In this document: piece by piece, positions 11,725 through 19,787 of the stretch | Position numbering within the stretch: position 1 is the stretch's first letter | How the letters are laid out: every line of letters begins with the position of its first letter | Assembly (NCBI GenBank): GCA_019636335.1 | Contig: JAHBXR010000013.1 | Location: 62,001-126,000, forward strand | Direction of reading: 5' to 3' | Source of the DNA: Pirellulales bacterium | Lineage (GTDB): Bacteria > Planctomycetota > Planctomycetia > Pirellulales > JAEUIK01 | Length of the DNA stretch: 64,000 bases | Program-made: the position numbers and the translations under genes | The notes under the pieces: generated by a model | Database searches by the model: none | What the model saw: the letters and a program-made list of their open reading frames with translations, nothing else | What the model was told of the DNA's origin: nothing

Positions 11725-11894
11725 GGCGGCGGGAGGGTAGGAAAAGCGGTCGCGGCGGTCAAGGTCGGCCGAAGCTGCGCGGGGCTCGCTCGTTCACATG
11801 CCAACTCTCCGTTTTGCCCCCCTTGGCAGGTCCGGCTATCTTGAATCGAACCGGGCAGCGGCCCGGGAGTGAACCAGCGGAAAAGGAGCCGCGT

Positions 11895-12203
11895 ATGAGC
11901 AACACCATGACTCGTGCCGAAGCGGTATCCACCGAGAGCCCCTGGGCCACCTTGCTGGGTCAGATGATCGTGCTCGACCTGCACAGCCCCTACGTCTACC
12001 TAGGACGGCTCGAAGAGGTCGTGCCGGGCTTTCTGGTACTGGCCGAGGCCGACGCGCACGACCTGCGCGACACGGCCACCACGCGCGACCGGTACATCCG
12101 CGAACGGTGCGAGCTGGGGGTGAACGCCAACCGTCGCCGGGTCTGGGTGCGATTGGACGAAGTCGTGGGAATATCACGGCTCGACGACGTCGTGACCGAC
12201 TAG
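11895..12203 (+). CDS. Small beta-rich conserved protein, possibly Sm-like
   Basis: The protein is 102 residues, starting at the ATG at 11895 behind a strong AAAGGAG. The pattern [22 protein letters not shown] followed by [14 protein letters not shown] alternates short beta strands around a glycine, as in Sm/LSm-like or other small barrel folds. A basic stretch [20 protein letters not shown] follows and fits a final strand. No catalytic motif is visible and I do not recognise a named family. It leads a plus-strand run with acylphosphatase and the ABC-2 permease. The coding call is firm; the fold is inference. Confidence 0.68.
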
Positions 12204-12319
12204 ACACAAGGCGCTCGCCTGGCGCGATTGGCCGGCTCGGCCGGTGGTCAACCCAGCCATCCCGCGCTTATACTGGAAACCACGCCGCGGGTCGTCCGTA
12301 CAGAGAAGGAAGCGTGCTT

Positions 12320-12604
12320 GTGTCATCGGCCGAATCCGAACGCCGCGAGGTGTTCTACAGCGGTCGCGTGCAAGGGGTTGGCTTTCGCTACACGACGCGC
12401 CGCATCGCCGCCGATTATGCCGTGACCGGCCACGTGCGCAACCTGCCCGACGGGCGCGTTGAGCTCGTGGTCGAAGGGGCATCGGGAGAACTCGATCGTT
12501 TTCTGGCGGCGCTGGCCGCGGAGATGTCGGCGTATATCTCGGGCGCCGAATCGCGCACGAGTGCGCCCCGCGGAACGTACGACGGCTTCGATATTCGCTT
12601 GTGA
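12320..12604 (+). CDS. acyP: Acylphosphatase
   Basis: Acylphosphatase hydrolyses carboxyl-phosphate bonds in small acyl phosphates in the cytoplasm. The 94-residue chain matches the family size and carries the signature [19 protein letters not shown], with the arginine of GVGFR that binds phosphate, followed by [17 protein letters not shown] with the catalytic asparagine. Two in-frame GTG codons compete for the start: 12314 lies only 3 nt after AGAAGGA, while 12320 gives a 9-nt spacing and is preferred. The stop is 25 bp before the ABC-2 permease start, so the two are probably co-transcribed. Confidence 0.92.
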
Positions 12605-12629: not shown

Positions 12630-13571
12630 GTGCTCGCCCCACCGGTCTTGATTGGCGTTTCGTCGGTTTGGTTGACTCCGATCTGGCTGGTCGGCGTGGG
12701 CGCCGCGATTTGCGGCGCCGCGCTCTTCGCGTTCTACATGCTGCTCAAGCTGACCGCGCCGCGCCTGGCGGCCATTGCGCTCACCACCTCGAAAGAGGCC
12801 ATCGCGCAGCCGCTGTTCTGGGTGCTGATCTTCGTGGGCATCGCGGCGCTGCTGGCCTTTCCCTTCGTGCCCTACAACACCTTTGGCGAAGACGTCAAAG
12901 TGGTGAAAGACTCGGGTCTGACGTTGATCATGGTCCTGGCGATCGTCTTGGCGCTCTGGACCGCCAGCATCTCGATCGCCGACGAAATCGAAGGCCGCAC
13001 CGCGCTGACGCTGTTGTCGAAGCCGGTGAGACGTTGGCAGTTCATCGTGGGCAAGTTCCTGGGCATTCTGGGCCCGGTGGCCATCATGTTCATCGTGCTG
13101 GGGACGTTGTTCCTGACGTCGGTCTCGTACAAGGTGGTCTACGACGCCCGCGAGGGAGCGCTCCCCGAGCCCACGACCTGGCAGTGCCGGGCCGAAATGT
13201 TGCAAATTGTGCCGGGATTGGTGCTCGGCTTCCTCGAGGTGGTCGTGCTGACCTCGATCAGCGTGGCCATTTCGACCCGCCTGCCGATGCTGGCCAATCT
13301 GTTGATCTGCTCGTCGATTTACGTGCTGGGGCACCTGGTCCCCATGCTCGTGAACTCGTCCGTGGGGCAGTTTCCCCTGGTGCAGTTCATGGGCTACTTC
13401 ATCGCCACGATTCTGCCCGTCCTCGATCACTTCAATGTCCAGGCGGCAGTGGCTACCGGTGCGCAGGTTCCCTGGAGCTACCTGGCGTGGACACTGCTTT
13501 ACACCGTGCTCTACAGCACGGTGGCCCTGTTCGTCGCCCTGATCATGTTCGACGATCGCGATCTGGCCTGA
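12630..13571 (+). CDS. ABC-2 type transporter permease subunit
   Basis: The 313-residue inner-membrane protein has about six hydrophobic segments. After the first pair it carries the ABC-2 signature region ISIADEIEGRTALTLLSKPV (roughly residues 120-140), where ABC-2 permeases contact their ATPase. It starts at GTG 12630, 10 nt behind AGAGGA; a frame extending further upstream overlaps the acylphosphatase and is not used. No intact ABC ATPase gene lies beside it; the next gene is a transporter-like protein with a degenerate ATPase domain. The substrate is unknown. Confidence 0.85.
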   Translation: MLAPPVLIGVSSVWLTPIWLVGVGAAICGAALFAFYMLLKLTAPRLAAIALTTSKEAIAQPLFWVLIFVGIAALLAFPFVPYNTFGEDVKVVKDSGLTLIMVLAIVLALWTASISIADEIEGRTALTLLSKPVRRWQFIVGKFLGILGPVAIMFIVLGTLFLTSVSYKVVYDAREGALPEPTTWQCRAEMLQIVPGLVLGFLEVVVLTSISVAISTRLPMLANLLICSSIYVLGHLVPMLVNSSVGQFPLVQFMGYFIATILPVLDHFNVQAAVATGAQVPWSYLAWTLLYTVLYSTVALFVALIMFDDRDLA

Positions 13572-13729: not shown

Positions 13730-15673
13730 ATGTCGTTGGCCGCGTTTCATCGAGCGAGACGATCCTCGCCTGCCGTGCGCGGCCCCTCGCTCTTGACCGG
13801 GGCGCTCAGCATCGCTTCGTCGCTCTTCCTGGTGGCCCTGTTGCTGGTCATGGGGCTGGCCGCCGAGTTGCTCGTGACGCGCGGCGATCTCGTCGTCGCG
13901 GAGAGCGATCGCGCTTCGGTCGAGGAACTGGCGGGCCCCCCGACCGCGCAGTTCGATGGGGAACTGCGTTACGAGAACCGGGGCCTGTTGCCCGTCGTGT
14001 GGCGACTGCATGGCACGCCGCGCGGCGCCGTCGTGCGTTCGGCGTACGCCAGCCTGCCGGCACTGCAAGCAAACCATTCGGCGTTGTTCGCCCTGGCCTT
14101 GATGGGCCTGGCGATCGCGGCCATCCGGAGCCTGACGCAGTATCTGCGCGAATTGGCCGTCGAGCATGCCGCGCAGAGCGTCGTTACCGAGCTGCGCCGC
14201 GCCATTTATCGGCAAGCCCTGCAGCTCGAGTCGATTGCCACGCCGCGCAGCCGTGTGTCCGACGCCGTGGAACTGTTCGGACCGGTGGCCGAAACCGTCC
14301 GCCGCGGATTGGTCGCATGGTGGCGCGCCTTGCCGGGGGCCGTCGTGTCGATCGTGTTGCTCTTGGCGCTGGCCCTCTACATGGAACCGTGGGCGACGTT
14401 GGCCGCGCTCCTCGTCGGCGGATTGTGGTGGCTCGCCTTTCGCGGAATGAGGCAGCGCATGCGCCATCGCGAGCGGCTCATGGTAGACCGCGCGGAGCAG
14501 AACATGGCCGTGCTGGCCGATAATCTCCGGCAGGTGCGCATGGCGCGCGGACTGATGCTCGACGCCCTACCCGGCGAAACCTTCGACAAACTATTGGACC
14601 GGTATCGAGCTGCCGCCACGGACCGCGATAACACGACGGCGGGCATCGAACCACTGGGACAACTCGTGATGGCAGCCATCGCCGCGCTGATGCTGTTCCT
14701 CAGCGGTATCAATCTGCTGCGCGAACCGCCCCGCGTCTCGGTCGCCGAGTTGACCATCTTGTTTACTGCCATCCTGGCCCTCTATCCTCGGGCGCGGCAG
14801 TTGATCGATTTGCGCCGCCAGCTCGAACCGGTCGACGAGGCCGCTCGCGAGATCCTGGCCTATCTCGACCGAGAACCGGGACTGGGGCAAGTCGTCGGCG
14901 CGAAGCAAGTCGCGCGTTGGAAAGATTCTATCGCCCTCGAACGAGTTTGCTTCTGCGCTCCAGACGGAGTAAAGATCCTCGACGACGTCACGCTAAAGAT
15001 CCCTGCGGGCGGACGCGTGGCCATCGTTTCGTCCGACCGCCGCGTGCCCCTGGCGATTGCGGGCCTGCTGGCGCGGCTCGACGAGCCCACGTCGGGCCGA
15101 GTCCTCTTCGATGGGCAGGATATTCGCGCAGGCACGCTCGAATCCGTGCGGGGGCAAGTGGCCCATGTCCTGCAACAGCGACTCCTCTTCAACGCCAGTG
15201 TGGCCGAGAACGTCTGCTGCGAGACGAACGGACGCGTCGATACCGCGCGCGTGAATCAGGCAGCCAAGCTGGCCCGGGCGTACGACTTCGTGCAACGGTT
15301 GCCGCACGGTTTCGACACCGTCGTCGGCGAGCACGGCACCCGGCTCGAAGCCAGCGAGGTGCTGCGGATCGGCCTGGCCCGGGCCTTGCTGCGCAACCCG
15401 AGTCTGCTCGTGCTCGAGGAGCCCGAGGGGGCGATCGATGAACAAGGGGGCGCCGAGTTCGATGCGGCGCTCGAACGCATCGCCCGGCAGACGACGCTGG
15501 TGCTACTGCCAACGCGACTCTCGACGCTCCGTTCGGTCGACTGCGTCTACTTGTTGCACGCAGGCAAGCTCAAAGCTCAAGGAAAGCACGCCGAGCTCTT
15601 ACAGAGCTCCGAGCTTTACCGGCACCTGCAATACCTGCGATTCAACGAGTTCCGCGGGCAGGTCGGAAGCTGA
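13730..15673 (+). CDS. ABC exporter-like protein with degenerate nucleotide-binding domain
   Basis: The 647-residue protein has the layout of a half-size ABC exporter: a membrane domain (hydrophobic segments between residues ~22 and 335) then an ATPase-fold domain (~395-640). The ATPase fold is recognisable, yet nearly every catalytic motif is altered. The Walker A region at 430-441 reads VAIVSSDRRVPL with no GK[ST]; the signature LSGGQ is replaced by LEASE (539-543); Walker B reads LLVLEEP (E563 where Asp is expected); the H-loop AHRLST is PTRLST (T595). The Q-loop glutamine is kept (VLQQ). Start ATG 13730 follows GAGGGG. A pseudo-ATPase transporter, receptor or scaffold is likely; because the frame is fully open, recent decay is unlikely. 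Confidence 0.82.
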   Translation: MSLAAFHRARRSSPAVRGPSLLTGALSIASSLFLVALLLVMGLAAELLVTRGDLVVAESDRASVEELAGPPTAQFDGELRYENRGLLPVVWRLHGTPRGAVVRSAYASLPALQANHSALFALALMGLAIAAIRSLTQYLRELAVEHAAQSVVTELRRAIYRQALQLESIATPRSRVSDAVELFGPVAETVRRGLVAWWRALPGAVVSIVLLLALALYMEPWATLAALLVGGLWWLAFRGMRQRMRHRERLMVDRAEQNMAVLADNLRQVRMARGLMLDALPGETFDKLLDRYRAAATDRDNTTAGIEPLGQLVMAAIAALMLFLSGINLLREPPRVSVAELTILFTAILALYPRARQLIDLRRQLEPVDEAAREILAYLDREPGLGQVVGAKQVARWKDSIALERVCFCAPDGVKILDDVTLKIPAGGRVAIVSSDRRVPLAIAGLLARLDEPTSGRVLFDGQDIRAGTLESVRGQVAHVLQQRLLFNASVAENVCCETNGRVDTARVNQAAKLARAYDFVQRLPHGFDTVVGEHGTRLEASEVLRIGLARALLRNPSLLVLEEPEGAIDEQGGAEFDAALERIARQTTLVLLPTRLSTLRSVDCVYLLHAGKLKAQGKHAELLQSSELYRHLQYLRFNEFRGQVGS

Positions 15674-15786: not shown

Positions 15787-16896
15787 TTAGCCCGCTTTGC
15801 GTTCCACCGGCGCGTGTTGCGGCGAGAGGTGCCAGTGGGGACCGCGCATCGTGTTCGGCAGGGCGAATTTGCCGACGCGACCAGACGACGTGCCGTCCCA
15901 GGTGTGCGCGTCGATCGAGGCGAGAATCTGATCCGCCACCGAGAGGGCCTCGCGTGCCTGGCGACCATCGACGCGCGGCGCGCGGCCGGCGCGGATCGAG
16001 GACACGAAATCGACCTGCTCGGCCGTAATCTGATCGCAGGCCTCGACCGTGGGATGCTCGACGGCGAGCCACTCTTCGAACAGGTGTTCTTTCAGGTGCG
16101 CGATCTGCTCCGGCGTGAGCTCCTCGACGCGCACCTCGCGGCGCATGAGGGCGTCGCTCGGACGCACGACCGTGGTCTGGCGAGCGCCAAAATCAAGCGA
16201 GGTAAAGCCGCCGGTCGACCAGACATGCATCGTGCGAACGGCCGAATAACTGGCCCGCGAGGCGCCCAGCGTGGCGACGCAGCCGTTTTCGAACTCGAGC
16301 CTGGCATGGGCCACGTCTTCGTGCGTGCCGAAGACCGAGATGCCCAACGCATCGACACGCCGTACCGGCGAGCGCACCAACGACAGCACGAGATCGAGAT
16401 CGTGAATCATCAGGTCGTGGACGACGCCGATATCGGTCGAGCGGAACGAGAAGACCCCCGCGCGGCAGCATTCGATGTATTTCGGATCGCGGACGTGGGG
16501 CAGGGCCGCGGTCAGCGCCGGGTTGAAGCGTTCGACGTGACCTACTTGCAGCACGCGTCCGCAGCGCTCGGCCAGGGCCACCATCTCGTCGGCTTCGACG
16601 AGGCTCGATGCCAGGGGTTTCTCGACCAGCAGGTGGATGCCCGCCGCGAGCAGATCGCAAGCCACGGCGTGGTGAAAACGCGTGGGGGCCGCCACCACGG
16701 CCGCATCGACGCGGCCGAGCAGTTCGCGATGATGCGCGAACGAGGCCACGCCATGCTCGGCGGCCAGGGCCTCGCGGGCCGGTTGCACCGGATCGGCAAT
16801 GCCCACCAATTCCACGCCGTCCAGCCCTTTGGCAATCCGGGCGTGGACGCGTCCGAGATGCCCCGCTCCGACGACTGCCAGGCGAAGTGGTGTCAC
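15787..16896 (-). CDS. Gfo/Idh/MocA family NAD(P)-dependent oxidoreductase, lpxA-linked
   Basis: The product is 369 residues with an N-terminal Rossmann domain (LAVVGAGHLGRVHARI, residues ~6-21), the family motif LLVEKPLAS and a C-terminal Gfo/Idh domain with the substrate-side VVHDLMIHDLDLVLSL block. The start is GTG 16896, overlapping the lpxA stop as GTGA, so translation is coupled to lpxA. That linkage suggests a UDP-sugar substrate: in Acidithiobacillus and Leptospira a homologous oxidoreductase, GnnA, sits next to lpxA and oxidises UDP-GlcNAc at C3 for a 3-amino lipid A. The partner aminotransferase GnnB is not next to it here, so the assignment is only suggestive. Confidence 0.85.
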   Translation of the reverse strand: MTPLRLAVVGAGHLGRVHARIAKGLDGVELVGIADPVQPAREALAAEHGVASFAHHRELLGRVDAAVVAAPTRFHHAVACDLLAAGIHLLVEKPLASSLVEADEMVALAERCGRVLQVGHVERFNPALTAALPHVRDPKYIECCRAGVFSFRSTDIGVVHDLMIHDLDLVLSLVRSPVRRVDALGISVFGTHEDVAHARLEFENGCVATLGASRASYSAVRTMHVWSTGGFTSLDFGARQTTVVRPSDALMRREVRVEELTPEQIAHLKEHLFEEWLAVEHPTVEACDQITAEQVDFVSSIRAGRAPRVDGRQAREALSVADQILASIDAHTWDGTSSGRVGKFALPNTMRGPHWHLSPQHAPVERKAG

Positions 16897-17699
16897 GCGG
16901 CCCTCCGGCGTTCGCGGGCGCGCCCGTGCTTGCCTTCCTGCTGGTGTTGAATAAACGCCAGCAGTTGGTTCACGTGTTGCCCGAGCTGTTCGTTGGTGCG
17001 CAAAATTTCGCGGGCATGATCGAGGCCGACCTTGGCGCGATAAATCAAGCGATGCGACTCGGCGATGCACTCGATTTCATGGGCCGAGAAGTTGTTCCGT
17101 TTGAGCGCCACCACGTTGATGCAGCGCGGCCGGGCAGGATGGCCTTCGACGAGCATGAACGGCGGCACGTCGTGCAGCACGCGGGCCAGACCGCTCACGA
17201 AGGCGTAGCTGCCGATCGTGGCGAAGTGGTGGACGCCGACGCCCCCCGAGAGGGACGCGTGGTCGTGTACGTGAACGTGCCCCCCCAGCAGCGTGCCATT
17301 GGCGATCACGATGTGATTGCCCAAGCGGCAGTCGTGCGCCACGTGGGAGCAGGCCATCAGGTAATTGTGATCGCCGATCGTCGTGACACCGTCTTCCTTC
17401 TCGGTGGCGCGATTGATCGTCACCCCCTCGCGGATCACATTATGATCGCCGATGACGACGCGCGTGTCGGACCCGCCATAGCTGAGGTCCTGCGGTTCGC
17501 CCCCGATGACGACACCGGGATAGAGATGGTTGTGCGCGCCGATCGAGACGTGCCCCATCACGGTCACGTTGTTCTCGAGACGGGTCCCGCGGCCAATGCG
17601 GGCGTACGGGCTGATCACGCAGAAGGGGCCGATCTCGACATCGTCGTCGATTTCGGCACGTCGGTCGACCGACGCGGTGTCCGCGACGTAGGTGGCCAT
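16893..17699 (-). CDS. lpxA: Acyl-ACP--UDP-N-acetylglucosamine O-acyltransferase
   Basis: LpxA adds a 3-hydroxyacyl chain from ACP to UDP-GlcNAc (or its 3-amino analogue), the first step of lipid A synthesis. The 268-residue protein is a left-handed parallel beta-helix of hexapeptide repeats (for example VEIGPFCVISPYARIGRG). The catalytic histidine lies in MACSHVAHDC (H122), and the C-terminal helical domain contains NFSAHEIECI. Start ATG 17699 follows GGAGTG; a longer upstream start adds five residues with no support. It lies 179 bp after lpxC on the same strand and overlaps the oxidoreductase. It shows that the organism makes a lipid A-type outer membrane. Confidence 0.95.
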   Translation of the reverse strand: MATYVADTASVDRRAEIDDDVEIGPFCVISPYARIGRGTRLENNVTVMGHVSIGAHNHLYPGVVIGGEPQDLSYGGSDTRVVIGDHNVIREGVTINRATEKEDGVTTIGDHNYLMACSHVAHDCRLGNHIVIANGTLLGGHVHVHDHASLSGGVGVHHFATIGSYAFVSGLARVLHDVPPFMLVEGHPARPRCINVVALKRNNFSAHEIECIAESHRLIYRAKVGLDHAREILRTNEQLGQHVNQLLAFIQHQQEGKHGRARERRRAA

Positions 17700-17878
17700 G
17701 CGAAGGCACTCCACGGCAGCGGCGGCACGCGACCCGAGATTCCATTCTCGAGGCGTCCTCGCCGTAGGTCACTTTGTTTTGAGACGTGTGTGTGGCACTG
17801 CCGGCTTGTCTGGCAGTATCGGCTTGGGCGAGCGCCCGGGGCGTTGTTTTCCTACCACCAGGCGCGCGCTGGACAGCG

Positions 17879-18754
17879 TTACGCCGAACGGCGTCGCTCT
17901 CCGTAGATTTCACCTTCTTTGAGCAGGACGCGCACGAGCTCGGCATTCAGCCGGTGCCCGCTACGATGTGCGACGAAGTGGCCGACCAGATCGCAACCGG
18001 CGAGCGAGAGATCGCCCACCAGGTCGAGCGCCTTGTGTCGCACGCATTCATCGCGATAGCGCAACGTGTTGTCGATGGGCCCGTCCTCGTCGAAGACGAG
18101 CAGATCGCGCGTCGTCGCCCGTTGCCCCAGCCCCTGCGATTGCAGCCACTCGGCCTCTTCCTTGAGCATGAACGTGCGGCTCGGAGCCAGCTCGCGGCGG
18201 AAGCAATCGGGCGTGATGTGCAGATTGATCGTCTGACGGCCGATGGCGTTGTCGCGGCCGTAGTCGAGGCGGAACTTGACGGAGAAGCCGCCGTGCGACG
18301 CCGGTTGAGCCTCGACCCAACTGTTCTCGTCCCCCAGTCGCGTGACTTCGCGGACGACGAGTCGTGTTCGTCGGTGGTCTTGCTCGACAATGCCTGCGGC
18401 ATCGATGGCCTCGACAAACGCCAGGCTCGAGCCATCGCAGCCCGGCATTTCCGCAGCGGTGACGCCGATCTCGCAGTTGTCGACTTGCAGTCCCGCCAGG
18501 GCGGCGAGCACGTGCTCGACCATGTCGACGCCGGCGCCGGCCGCGCGCAAGGACGTGCGACGCGGCACTTCGACACGTTGGTGTACGTGGGCGGCGATCC
18601 GCGGCCTGGCCGGCAGATCGTCGCGCACGAAGACCACGCCCGTGTCGGGCGGGGCCGGGCGGAATTCCACGCGGACATCCGCCCCGGTCCAATAGCCAAA
18701 TCCTTCGACCACCGCCGGCCGAGCCAACGTCGTTTGTCTGCGAAGCAAGTGCAT
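17879..18754 (-). CDS. lpxC: UDP-3-O-acyl-N-acetylglucosamine deacetylase
   Basis: LpxC is the zinc enzyme that removes the acetyl group from UDP-3-O-acyl-GlcNAc and commits the pathway to lipid A. The 291-residue chain is close to the family length. Conserved blocks are visible: DMVEHVLAALAGL with the first zinc histidine, HKALDLVGDL with the second histidine and the aspartate, and GHFVAHRSGHRLN with the general-acid histidine. It is a single-domain LpxC, not fused to FabZ. An in-frame TTG lies one codon upstream, but the ATG at 18754 is chosen. Neighbours skp and lpxA make this an envelope-biogenesis cluster. Confidence 0.95.
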   Translation of the reverse strand: MHLLRRQTTLARPAVVEGFGYWTGADVRVEFRPAPPDTGVVFVRDDLPARPRIAAHVHQRVEVPRRTSLRAAGAGVDMVEHVLAALAGLQVDNCEIGVTAAEMPGCDGSSLAFVEAIDAAGIVEQDHRRTRLVVREVTRLGDENSWVEAQPASHGGFSVKFRLDYGRDNAIGRQTINLHITPDCFRRELAPSRTFMLKEEAEWLQSQGLGQRATTRDLLVFDEDGPIDNTLRYRDECVRHKALDLVGDLSLAGCDLVGHFVAHRSGHRLNAELVRVLLKEGEIYGERRRSA

Positions 18755-18896
18755 CAAGTGCTGCCGAACTCGAGGAACACGGAAGAGACCGCAATGCCGC
18801 CTTGCGCGCCACCCCGATTGGTCGGCGCTCCGCGGAATCGCCCATCAACACCTGGCCAACCGAACGGTCTCGGCCGACCCGACCGGTTCGCGACGA

Positions 18897-19547
18897 CTAA
18901 CGTCGTGGCGGAACGCCCGGAGCACCCGGAACCTGCTGCACCGGTCGAGCGCCCGTCGTCGCGGCCGGCTGTCCCTGGCGACGCTTGATCTGGTCGAGCA
19001 CGATCGGCGTGATGTCGATCGAAGGATTGCTGTAGACGATCGCCTTGTTCAGCTCTTTCAGCACTTCCTGCGGATTGTTCGTGTCGATCTGGTCGCCGTT
19101 GAAACGCAAGACGAGTTGGATCCCGGCACGCTCGGCATACATGCGCGTCTCGTCGGCGATCTCTTGATAGACCGTGTAGTACATCTTCGCCTCGTGCAGC
19201 AGGAAGTCCTTCTTGCTGAGCTGCACCTTCACCTTCAGATCGGCGTCCTGCTTGGTGATGGCCTCTTCGAGTTGCTTGTACTCGGGCGTGCCCGGGTTGT
19301 AGTCGTTCAATCGGTCGACGAGCTTCTTGAGCTCTTCCTGGCGGGCCTTCACGTCGTGCTCGGCCTGTTCGACCTGACCGCGCAACTGCTCGCGACGGGC
19401 CTGGAAACCCGGGTGATTCTCGAAGATGTAGGTCATGTCGATGATGGCCACCGACGGGGGCGCGGGCGCCTGGGCCGCGGCCGAACTGGCAAAACAGGTG
19501 ACGATGCCGGTTGCGAGTGCAACCTGGAAGAAAAGACGATGGTTCAC
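18897..19547 (-). CDS. skp: OmpH/Skp-family periplasmic chaperone
   Basis: The 216-residue protein has a signal peptide ending near SSAAAQ and a long, highly charged helical region (residues ~50-130, rich in E, K and Q) typical of the tentacle-like coiled coils of Skp. The N-terminal SVAIIDMTYIFENHPGFQ matches the start of OmpH proteins (VDMQKVF type). Skp holds unfolded outer-membrane proteins in the periplasm. A longer frame starts at 19592, but the GTG at 19547 has AAGGAG exactly 7 nt upstream and is used. It precedes lpxC by 142 bp. The C-terminal tail of ~25 residues rich in Q, P and R is an unusual extension. Confidence 0.88.
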   Translation of the reverse strand: MNHRLFFQVALATGIVTCFASSAAAQAPAPPSVAIIDMTYIFENHPGFQARREQLRGQVEQAEHDVKARQEELKKLVDRLNDYNPGTPEYKQLEEAITKQDADLKVKVQLSKKDFLLHEAKMYYTVYQEIADETRMYAERAGIQLVLRFNGDQIDTNNPQEVLKELNKAIVYSNPSIDITPIVLDQIKRRQGQPAATTGARPVQQVPGAPGVPPRR

Positions 19548-19787
19548 GAAAGCACTCCTTGCTGTGAGGGCCAAGGCCTGGCGACGGGCCATACGCTGTG
19601 CGGAAGCGTAACGCTATGCCCCTCAATGCATCCATACAGTGGGGGGGAAGTGGTCCAACGCGAGGGCGGCATTGTGCCGAGAAGCGCGAACTGAGTAAAG
19701 GTCAGAAAACAGGCGCTTCGGGAACCTCGGCAAGTGTTGTTAATAACGCGAGTTACGCCCCCTTGATGGCACCTGGCGCCAGCAACG

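Follow-up and report, generated by a model that had tools for sequence, protein, structure and literature searches.

An ABC exporter fold stripped of its ATP-site motifs is maintained as a predicted pseudo-ATPase in planctomycetes

Does an ABC exporter gene whose ATPase site has been replaced encode a maintained protein or a gene in decay, and, if it is maintained, what might its product do beside an ABC-2 permease? The question is raised by a gene within a window of 64,000 nucleotides, the whole stretch of planctomycete DNA that was analyzed, for which the initial annotation had proposed a stable pseudo-ATPase. The acylphosphatase, ABC-2 permease and pseudo-exporter genes follow each other on the forward strand of the window, and a convergent cluster lies on the opposite strand:

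12314–12604 (+): acylphosphatase (Pfam 74 bits, cutoff 22.5), a recurrent neighbor of the permease
12630–13571 (+): NosY-like ABC-2 permease without an ATPase domain, directly upstream of the pseudo-exporter (assigned from Pfam, AlphaFold2 and adjacency)
13730–15673 (+): predicted pseudo-ATPase ABC exporter half-transporter of 647 amino acids, with TMD ~1–390 and NBD ~398–640 (assigned from the open reading frame, Pfam, the AlphaFold2 exporter fold and homologues)
15787–19592 (−): Gfo/Idh (UDP-GlcNAc 3-dehydrogenase-like), lpxA, lpxC and ompH genes, convergent with the pair and in the same order in many loci of the window's order

The pseudo-exporter frame runs from the ATG at 13730 to the stop at 15673 with no internal stops, and a purine-rich, ribosome-binding-like stretch, AAGAGGGG, lies immediately 5′ of the ATG. 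In the one chain, Pfam recognized ABC_membrane at 54 bits (cutoff 28) and ABC_tran at 46 bits (cutoff 25); across the family, ABC_tran was detected in 16/16 members and ABC_membrane in 7/16. The top NCBIfam profile was MsbA (TIGR02203 equivalog), with a score of 254.5 bits which falls below the curated cutoff of 602. An AlphaFold2 model derived with 18 sequences (mean pLDDT 79.8, ~90 in the NBD) displayed an exporter fold in which the helix after the former Walker A motif is still present. The closest solved structures were the exporters MsbA, P-glycoprotein, TmrA and Atm1 (Foldseek E 6e-29; VIA Z 28–31), whose nearly tied Z values do not single out any of them as the nearest; the top VIA match, TmrA (Z 30.6), was tied with homodimeric exporters. 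The NBD alone aligned with 2ghi with an rmsd of 2.1 over 245 residues. The assertion that the fold is intact over 647 residues is thus upheld by both the domain matches and the predicted structure.

The elements with which an exporter binds and hydrolyzes ATP, and those that are particular to the family, are located as follows:

15023–15058 (+): former Walker A, residues 432–443, IVSSDRRVPLAI, without GxxGxGK[ST]
15344–15358 (+): former signature motif, residues 539–543, LEASE where LSGGQ is expected
15416–15424 (+): end of Walker B, where E563 replaces Asp, the catalytic Glu E564 is kept and P565 is family-specific
15512–15532 (+): former H-loop and the motif that follows, where T595 replaces His, with R596, T599, L600 and R601
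15617–15646 (+): C-terminal helix motif YRHxxYxxFN, the family hallmark, with R631, H632, Y635 and F638 in 58/58 homologues

These positions were compared between the window protein plus 58 non-redundant homologues and 22 canonical exporters, nearly all of which are planctomycete. In the alignment, SSDRRVPLA occupies the place of GPNGCGK[ST]T in the window protein. The Walker A residues G437, G439 and K440 occur in 0/57, 1/57 and 1/57 family members, respectively, and in 22/22 canonical exporters, the divergent members having been added to a fixed alignment such that single-residue counts at gappy positions may err by one or two sequences. Positions 437 and 439 vary greatly across the family (entropy 3.2 and 2.9 bits), no conserved substitute for the Walker A Lys or glycines was found in the family alignment, and the Walker A Thr is replaced by Ala in 52/57 members. 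Neither a GK[ST] Walker A nor LSGGQ was present in any of the 58 homologues. The Walker B Asp is retained in 1/58 members and the A-loop aromatic residue in 2/57, whereas canonical relatives keep these motifs in 21–22 of 22. The H-loop His is retained in 5/58 family members and the Q-loop Gln in 9/58. The initial annotation had reported the changes in Walker A, the signature, Walker B and the H-loop, each of which is reproduced here; the replacement of the A-loop Tyr by A410 was missing from its list. Its description of a fully rewritten site that has lost all catalytic motifs applies to these five positions, but E564, invariant in 58/58 homologues, and the Q-loop residue Q482 of the window copy remain.

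What the family conserves instead is the NBD core, the X-loop and a new C-terminal helix. The X-loop, which is a contact from the NBD to the TMDs, is kept immediately before LEASE (T530, G533 and G536, with T530 in 58/58). R596 is invariant (58/58), Pro565 (56/58) is Ala in canonical exporters, and R601, a family-specific Arg (56/58), is Ala in most of them. Within the C-terminal motif, H632 and Y635 are not conserved in canonical exporters and N639 is found in 53/58 members. A DNA pattern for YRHxxYxxFN matched 35 of 296 genomes of the order; the reversed control matched none. The pairing of motif loss with the gain of new invariant residues (P565, R601, H632 and Y635) argues for a change of job rather than for decay. 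As both kinds of half-site that the protein contributes are lost, a homodimer would be devoid of ATP sites, and pairing with a normal half-transporter would not create a consensus one either. Judged by its sequence, the window protein has an ABC-exporter fold and is not an ABC ATPase: the two domains in one chain are accompanied by none of the Walker A motif, Walker B Asp, LSGGQ and H-loop His that compose a functional ATP site.

Selection was assessed in the five closest pairs within genus g146. The dN/dS ratio of the whole pseudo-exporter was 0.047–0.077, with values of 0.036–0.054 for the NBD and 0.048–0.102 for the TMD. The NBD of a canonical exporter from the same genomes yielded 0.023–0.105, and the ABC-2 permease 0 to 0.033. 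Constraint on the dead ATPase domain is therefore similar to that on a working NBD from these genomes. Alignment of homologues and estimation of dN/dS had been suggested with the initial annotation as checks on its proposal of a stable pseudo-ATPase rather than a dying gene; members throughout the class share the motif losses, dN/dS is low, and the proposal stands. The status of a maintained pseudo-ATPase thus is strongly supported at the sequence level.

Approximately 180 relatives of the pseudo-exporter were found, a figure which is the sum over searches rather than an exact census. The first 11 orthologues, from a search of 97 relatives, shared ~35–55% identity and were all degenerate. Wider searches located the pseudo-exporter in families f1, f9, f15, f16 and f18 of the window's order, in 116 of 119 good genomes of f21, a second family of the class, and in one genome of f22, with family and class membership taken as assigned in the genome search. 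When named GTDB genomes were scanned, the pseudo-exporter was encountered only in Planctomycetota (records titled Pirellulaceae, Planctomycetales, Planctomycetia and so on), the remaining four matches being weak or canonical; the label planctomycete for the family rests on these named records. The gene initially appeared from bit scores to be absent from most of f15, a conclusion that was rejected when the 325-bit matches were seen to carry the C-terminal motif and to belong to the degenerate family. Bit score alone therefore misleads, and the motif pattern was added for presence calls. A match of 360 bits in G450 was excluded as a canonical exporter. In a tree of 79 sequences, a single branch (SH-aLRT 100) separated the pseudo-exporter family from the canonical exporters, and within the family sequences clustered mainly by taxonomic family. 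This pattern is explained most simply by a single loss and mostly vertical inheritance thereafter, although the canonical set in the tree was limited and another canonical clade nested inside the family is formally possible. No earlier description of the family was found in the openly licensed PMC literature, which is weak evidence that it is novel.

The second strand of evidence concerns the permease. Its Pfam match, ABC2_membrane_2, was just below threshold (26.5 bits, cutoff 27.2), and its AlphaFold2 model has the predicted six-TM ABC-2 fold of NosY-like permeases, with NosY entries ranking first (VIA Z 15.8–17.8; the best, Z 17.8, covers 245 residues with an rmsd of 4.0). A conserved loop of the permease reads EIEGRTALTVLSKP. 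The gene occurs in a short form (~315 amino acids, as in the window) and in long forms with up to ~200 extra residues near the N-terminus, both of which co-occur with the pseudo-exporter (permeases of L031–L040, alignment A1, columns 35–240). Among 66 loci with enough flank, drawn from the two families of the class and from several families within the order, the permease is directly upstream of the pseudo-exporter on the same strand in 58. Past the permease stop codon, the next open frame begins after a median of ~40 bp, a value for which some loci entered the count twice. The two genes are apart in eight genomes (G372, G674, G712 and G899–G903), all of which possess the permease elsewhere; adjacency thus is not obligatory. 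The permease was detected in 356 of 396 genomes of the order, mostly without an adjoining pseudo-exporter, and persists without it in many families. Therefore, the permease does not need the pseudo-exporter, and, since the pseudo-exporter was never seen without the permease, the dependence is one-way.

The ATPase with which the permease NosY works is a separate protein. Unlike the NosFY(D) system, to which it is otherwise related by the alignment with NosY, the planctomycete permease has no common NosF-like ATPase gene beside it: in the loci read, the few ATPase genes near the pair or the lone permease were not common to the loci. The designation of the permease as an orphan therefore holds for these loci. 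In G052, a DrrA/NatA-type ATPase gene with its own ABC-2 permease follows lpxK and is succeeded by a KAS III gene; that downstream permease leaves the ATPase unsupported as the engine of the pseudo-exporter's neighbor. Of the proposed tie between the pseudo-exporter and the upstream permease, the genetic component is substantiated by the adjacency and by the eight unlinked genomes, and physical association, with a role as receptor, gate or scaffold, is what the linkage may reflect.

The surroundings of the pair vary. In most loci of the order, and in some of f21, the gene that immediately precedes the permease encodes an acylphosphatase. A small open reading frame upstream of the acylphosphatase gene in the window (11814–12203) has no Pfam match, and its kin (49–60% identity) are beside the permease in L036 and L102. 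Some f21 genomes have a gene for an HD_4-domain protein after the pseudo-exporter (L168, 8257–8865, −; L174, 11043–11669, +). In a divergent subgroup (L127, L133, L134, L136 and L138; 317–337 bits), the pseudo-exporter does not adjoin the permease and is preceded by other genes, such as one for a DUF1501 protein in L138 and one of the glycosyltransferase/methyltransferase kind in L127. For the Gfo/Idh protein of the window, the match with the UDP-GlcNAc 3-dehydrogenase profile scored under the cutoff. Neighboring lpx genes were observed at six loci with the pair (the window, L033, L034, L037, L112 and L114, the cluster in L037 having been located by tblastn) and at eight loci of the window's order with the permease only. 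In G052, lpxK is directly downstream of the pseudo-exporter (L036, equivalent to L123, 6746–7882, −). In E. coli, lpxK follows msbA. No lpx neighbors were present beside the pair in the f21 loci read, which weakens lpx linkage as the main association and leaves the lipid A link resting on one order. In Planctopirus limnophila, the genes for lipid A are essential (PMC10632474). It is plausible that the pseudo-exporter takes part in envelope lipid traffic or in the control of that traffic, and assignment to outer-membrane or lipid A assembly may be ventured more weakly.

The pseudo-exporter resembles MsbA and other homodimeric type I (type IV) exporters in the TMD-NBD order of a half-transporter, the full-length fold, the Thr and Gly residues of the X-loop and the best profile match. 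It departs from them in its missing ATP-site motifs, in a score far from the MsbA equivalog cutoff, in a long extracytoplasmic stretch after TM1, and in YRHxxYxxFN, P565 and R601. SUR-type regulatory ABC proteins offer a works-like analogy only, in which an ABC fold regulates another membrane protein. SUR binds and hydrolyzes nucleotide, unlike the behavior proposed for the pseudo-exporter.

Other explanations were weighed against a maintained ATP-free partner of the permease. That the gene is decaying, or that the motif changes are a product of chance, sequencing or assembly error, has practically no probability: nothing beyond the losses themselves speaks for it, and the open frame, dN/dS of 0.05–0.08 and identical losses in dozens of independent genomes refute it. 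It is very improbable that the protein still is an ATPase that employs unusual residues. The invariance of E564 and R596 makes a residual chemical role conceivable, but the Walker A Lys and glycines have no conserved replacement and the A-loop aromatic is gone. Somewhat less remote, although still improbable, is a silent half of a heterodimeric exporter that tunes a canonical half encoded elsewhere, as in TM287/288 or TAP. The half-transporter architecture and the top match with TmrA, itself a heterodimer half, fit this scheme, and exporters with degenerate sites provide a parallel for stable, selected loss of catalytic residues (PMC7756269). Nevertheless, the known examples (TM287/288, TmrAB, TAP, MRP1, CFTR and, most extreme, Pdr5) retain one consensus site, with ATP still bound at the degenerate site (PMC7756269), whereas with Walker A, Walker B, the H-loop and the signature lost together neither composite site of a dimer that includes the pseudo-exporter would be consensus. 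Moreover, no canonical half-transporter gene was found in the 64 kb of the window or beside the pair in the loci read.

A stand-alone lipid or LPS sensor is a more serious contender, if on balance an unlikely one. The ATPase-dead MsbA fold would report on an envelope lipid with no physical tie to the permease, and linkage would reflect only a shared pathway or regulation. The MsbA profile match, the lpxA and lpxC neighbors in the order and the lpxK gene downstream in G052, reminiscent of E. coli msbA-lpxK, are in keeping with a sensor. A precedent exists in YejM/PbgA, which is homologous to envelope-modifying enzymes, lacks their metal-binding residues, and is an LPS sensor that controls LpxC (PMC12444477); its fold is unrelated to that of the pseudo-exporter, and the likeness is one of working only. 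However, the near-universal neighbor is the permease and not lpx genes, and the NBD is the most constrained part of the protein, a feature with no evident use in a protein that only senses at the membrane.

The reading that we favor, and consider probable, is a stable pseudo-ATPase with an exporter fold that arose by one ancient loss of ATP use and was kept for an ATP-free role, most likely in envelope biogenesis, where it would partner the permease as a scaffold or receptor. ATP binding and hydrolysis would have been lost once, before the sampled planctomycete families split. The pseudo-exporter would dimerize like MsbA-type exporters, and its NBDs would form a cytoplasmic platform which is fixed or ligand-gated rather than ATP-gated and whose C-terminal YRHxxYxxFN helix may bind a partner. 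For the permease, the protein then would be a receptor, a scaffold or a gate, and the ATPase proper to the permease would work in trans. It is predicted to bind no nucleotide, to contact the permease and to have a lipid ligand. A more specific version is tentative: a class-wide, ATP-independent receptor or gate in which lipid A or another envelope lipid is the ligand of the dimer and the NBD platform switches the NosY-like permease or the lipid A pathway.

If the proposal is true, an exporter fold with both ATP sites dead has become a signaling or gating subunit, and the retention of the full fold across a class would show that it can serve without ATP. The family would provide a natural control with which to distinguish the parts of an exporter that are for ATP from those that are for structure and coupling. 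The finding is also a warning, as annotation pipelines would label such proteins ATP-binding transporters. Finally, the family offers a handle on outer-membrane building in planctomycetes, whose cell envelope has been debated.
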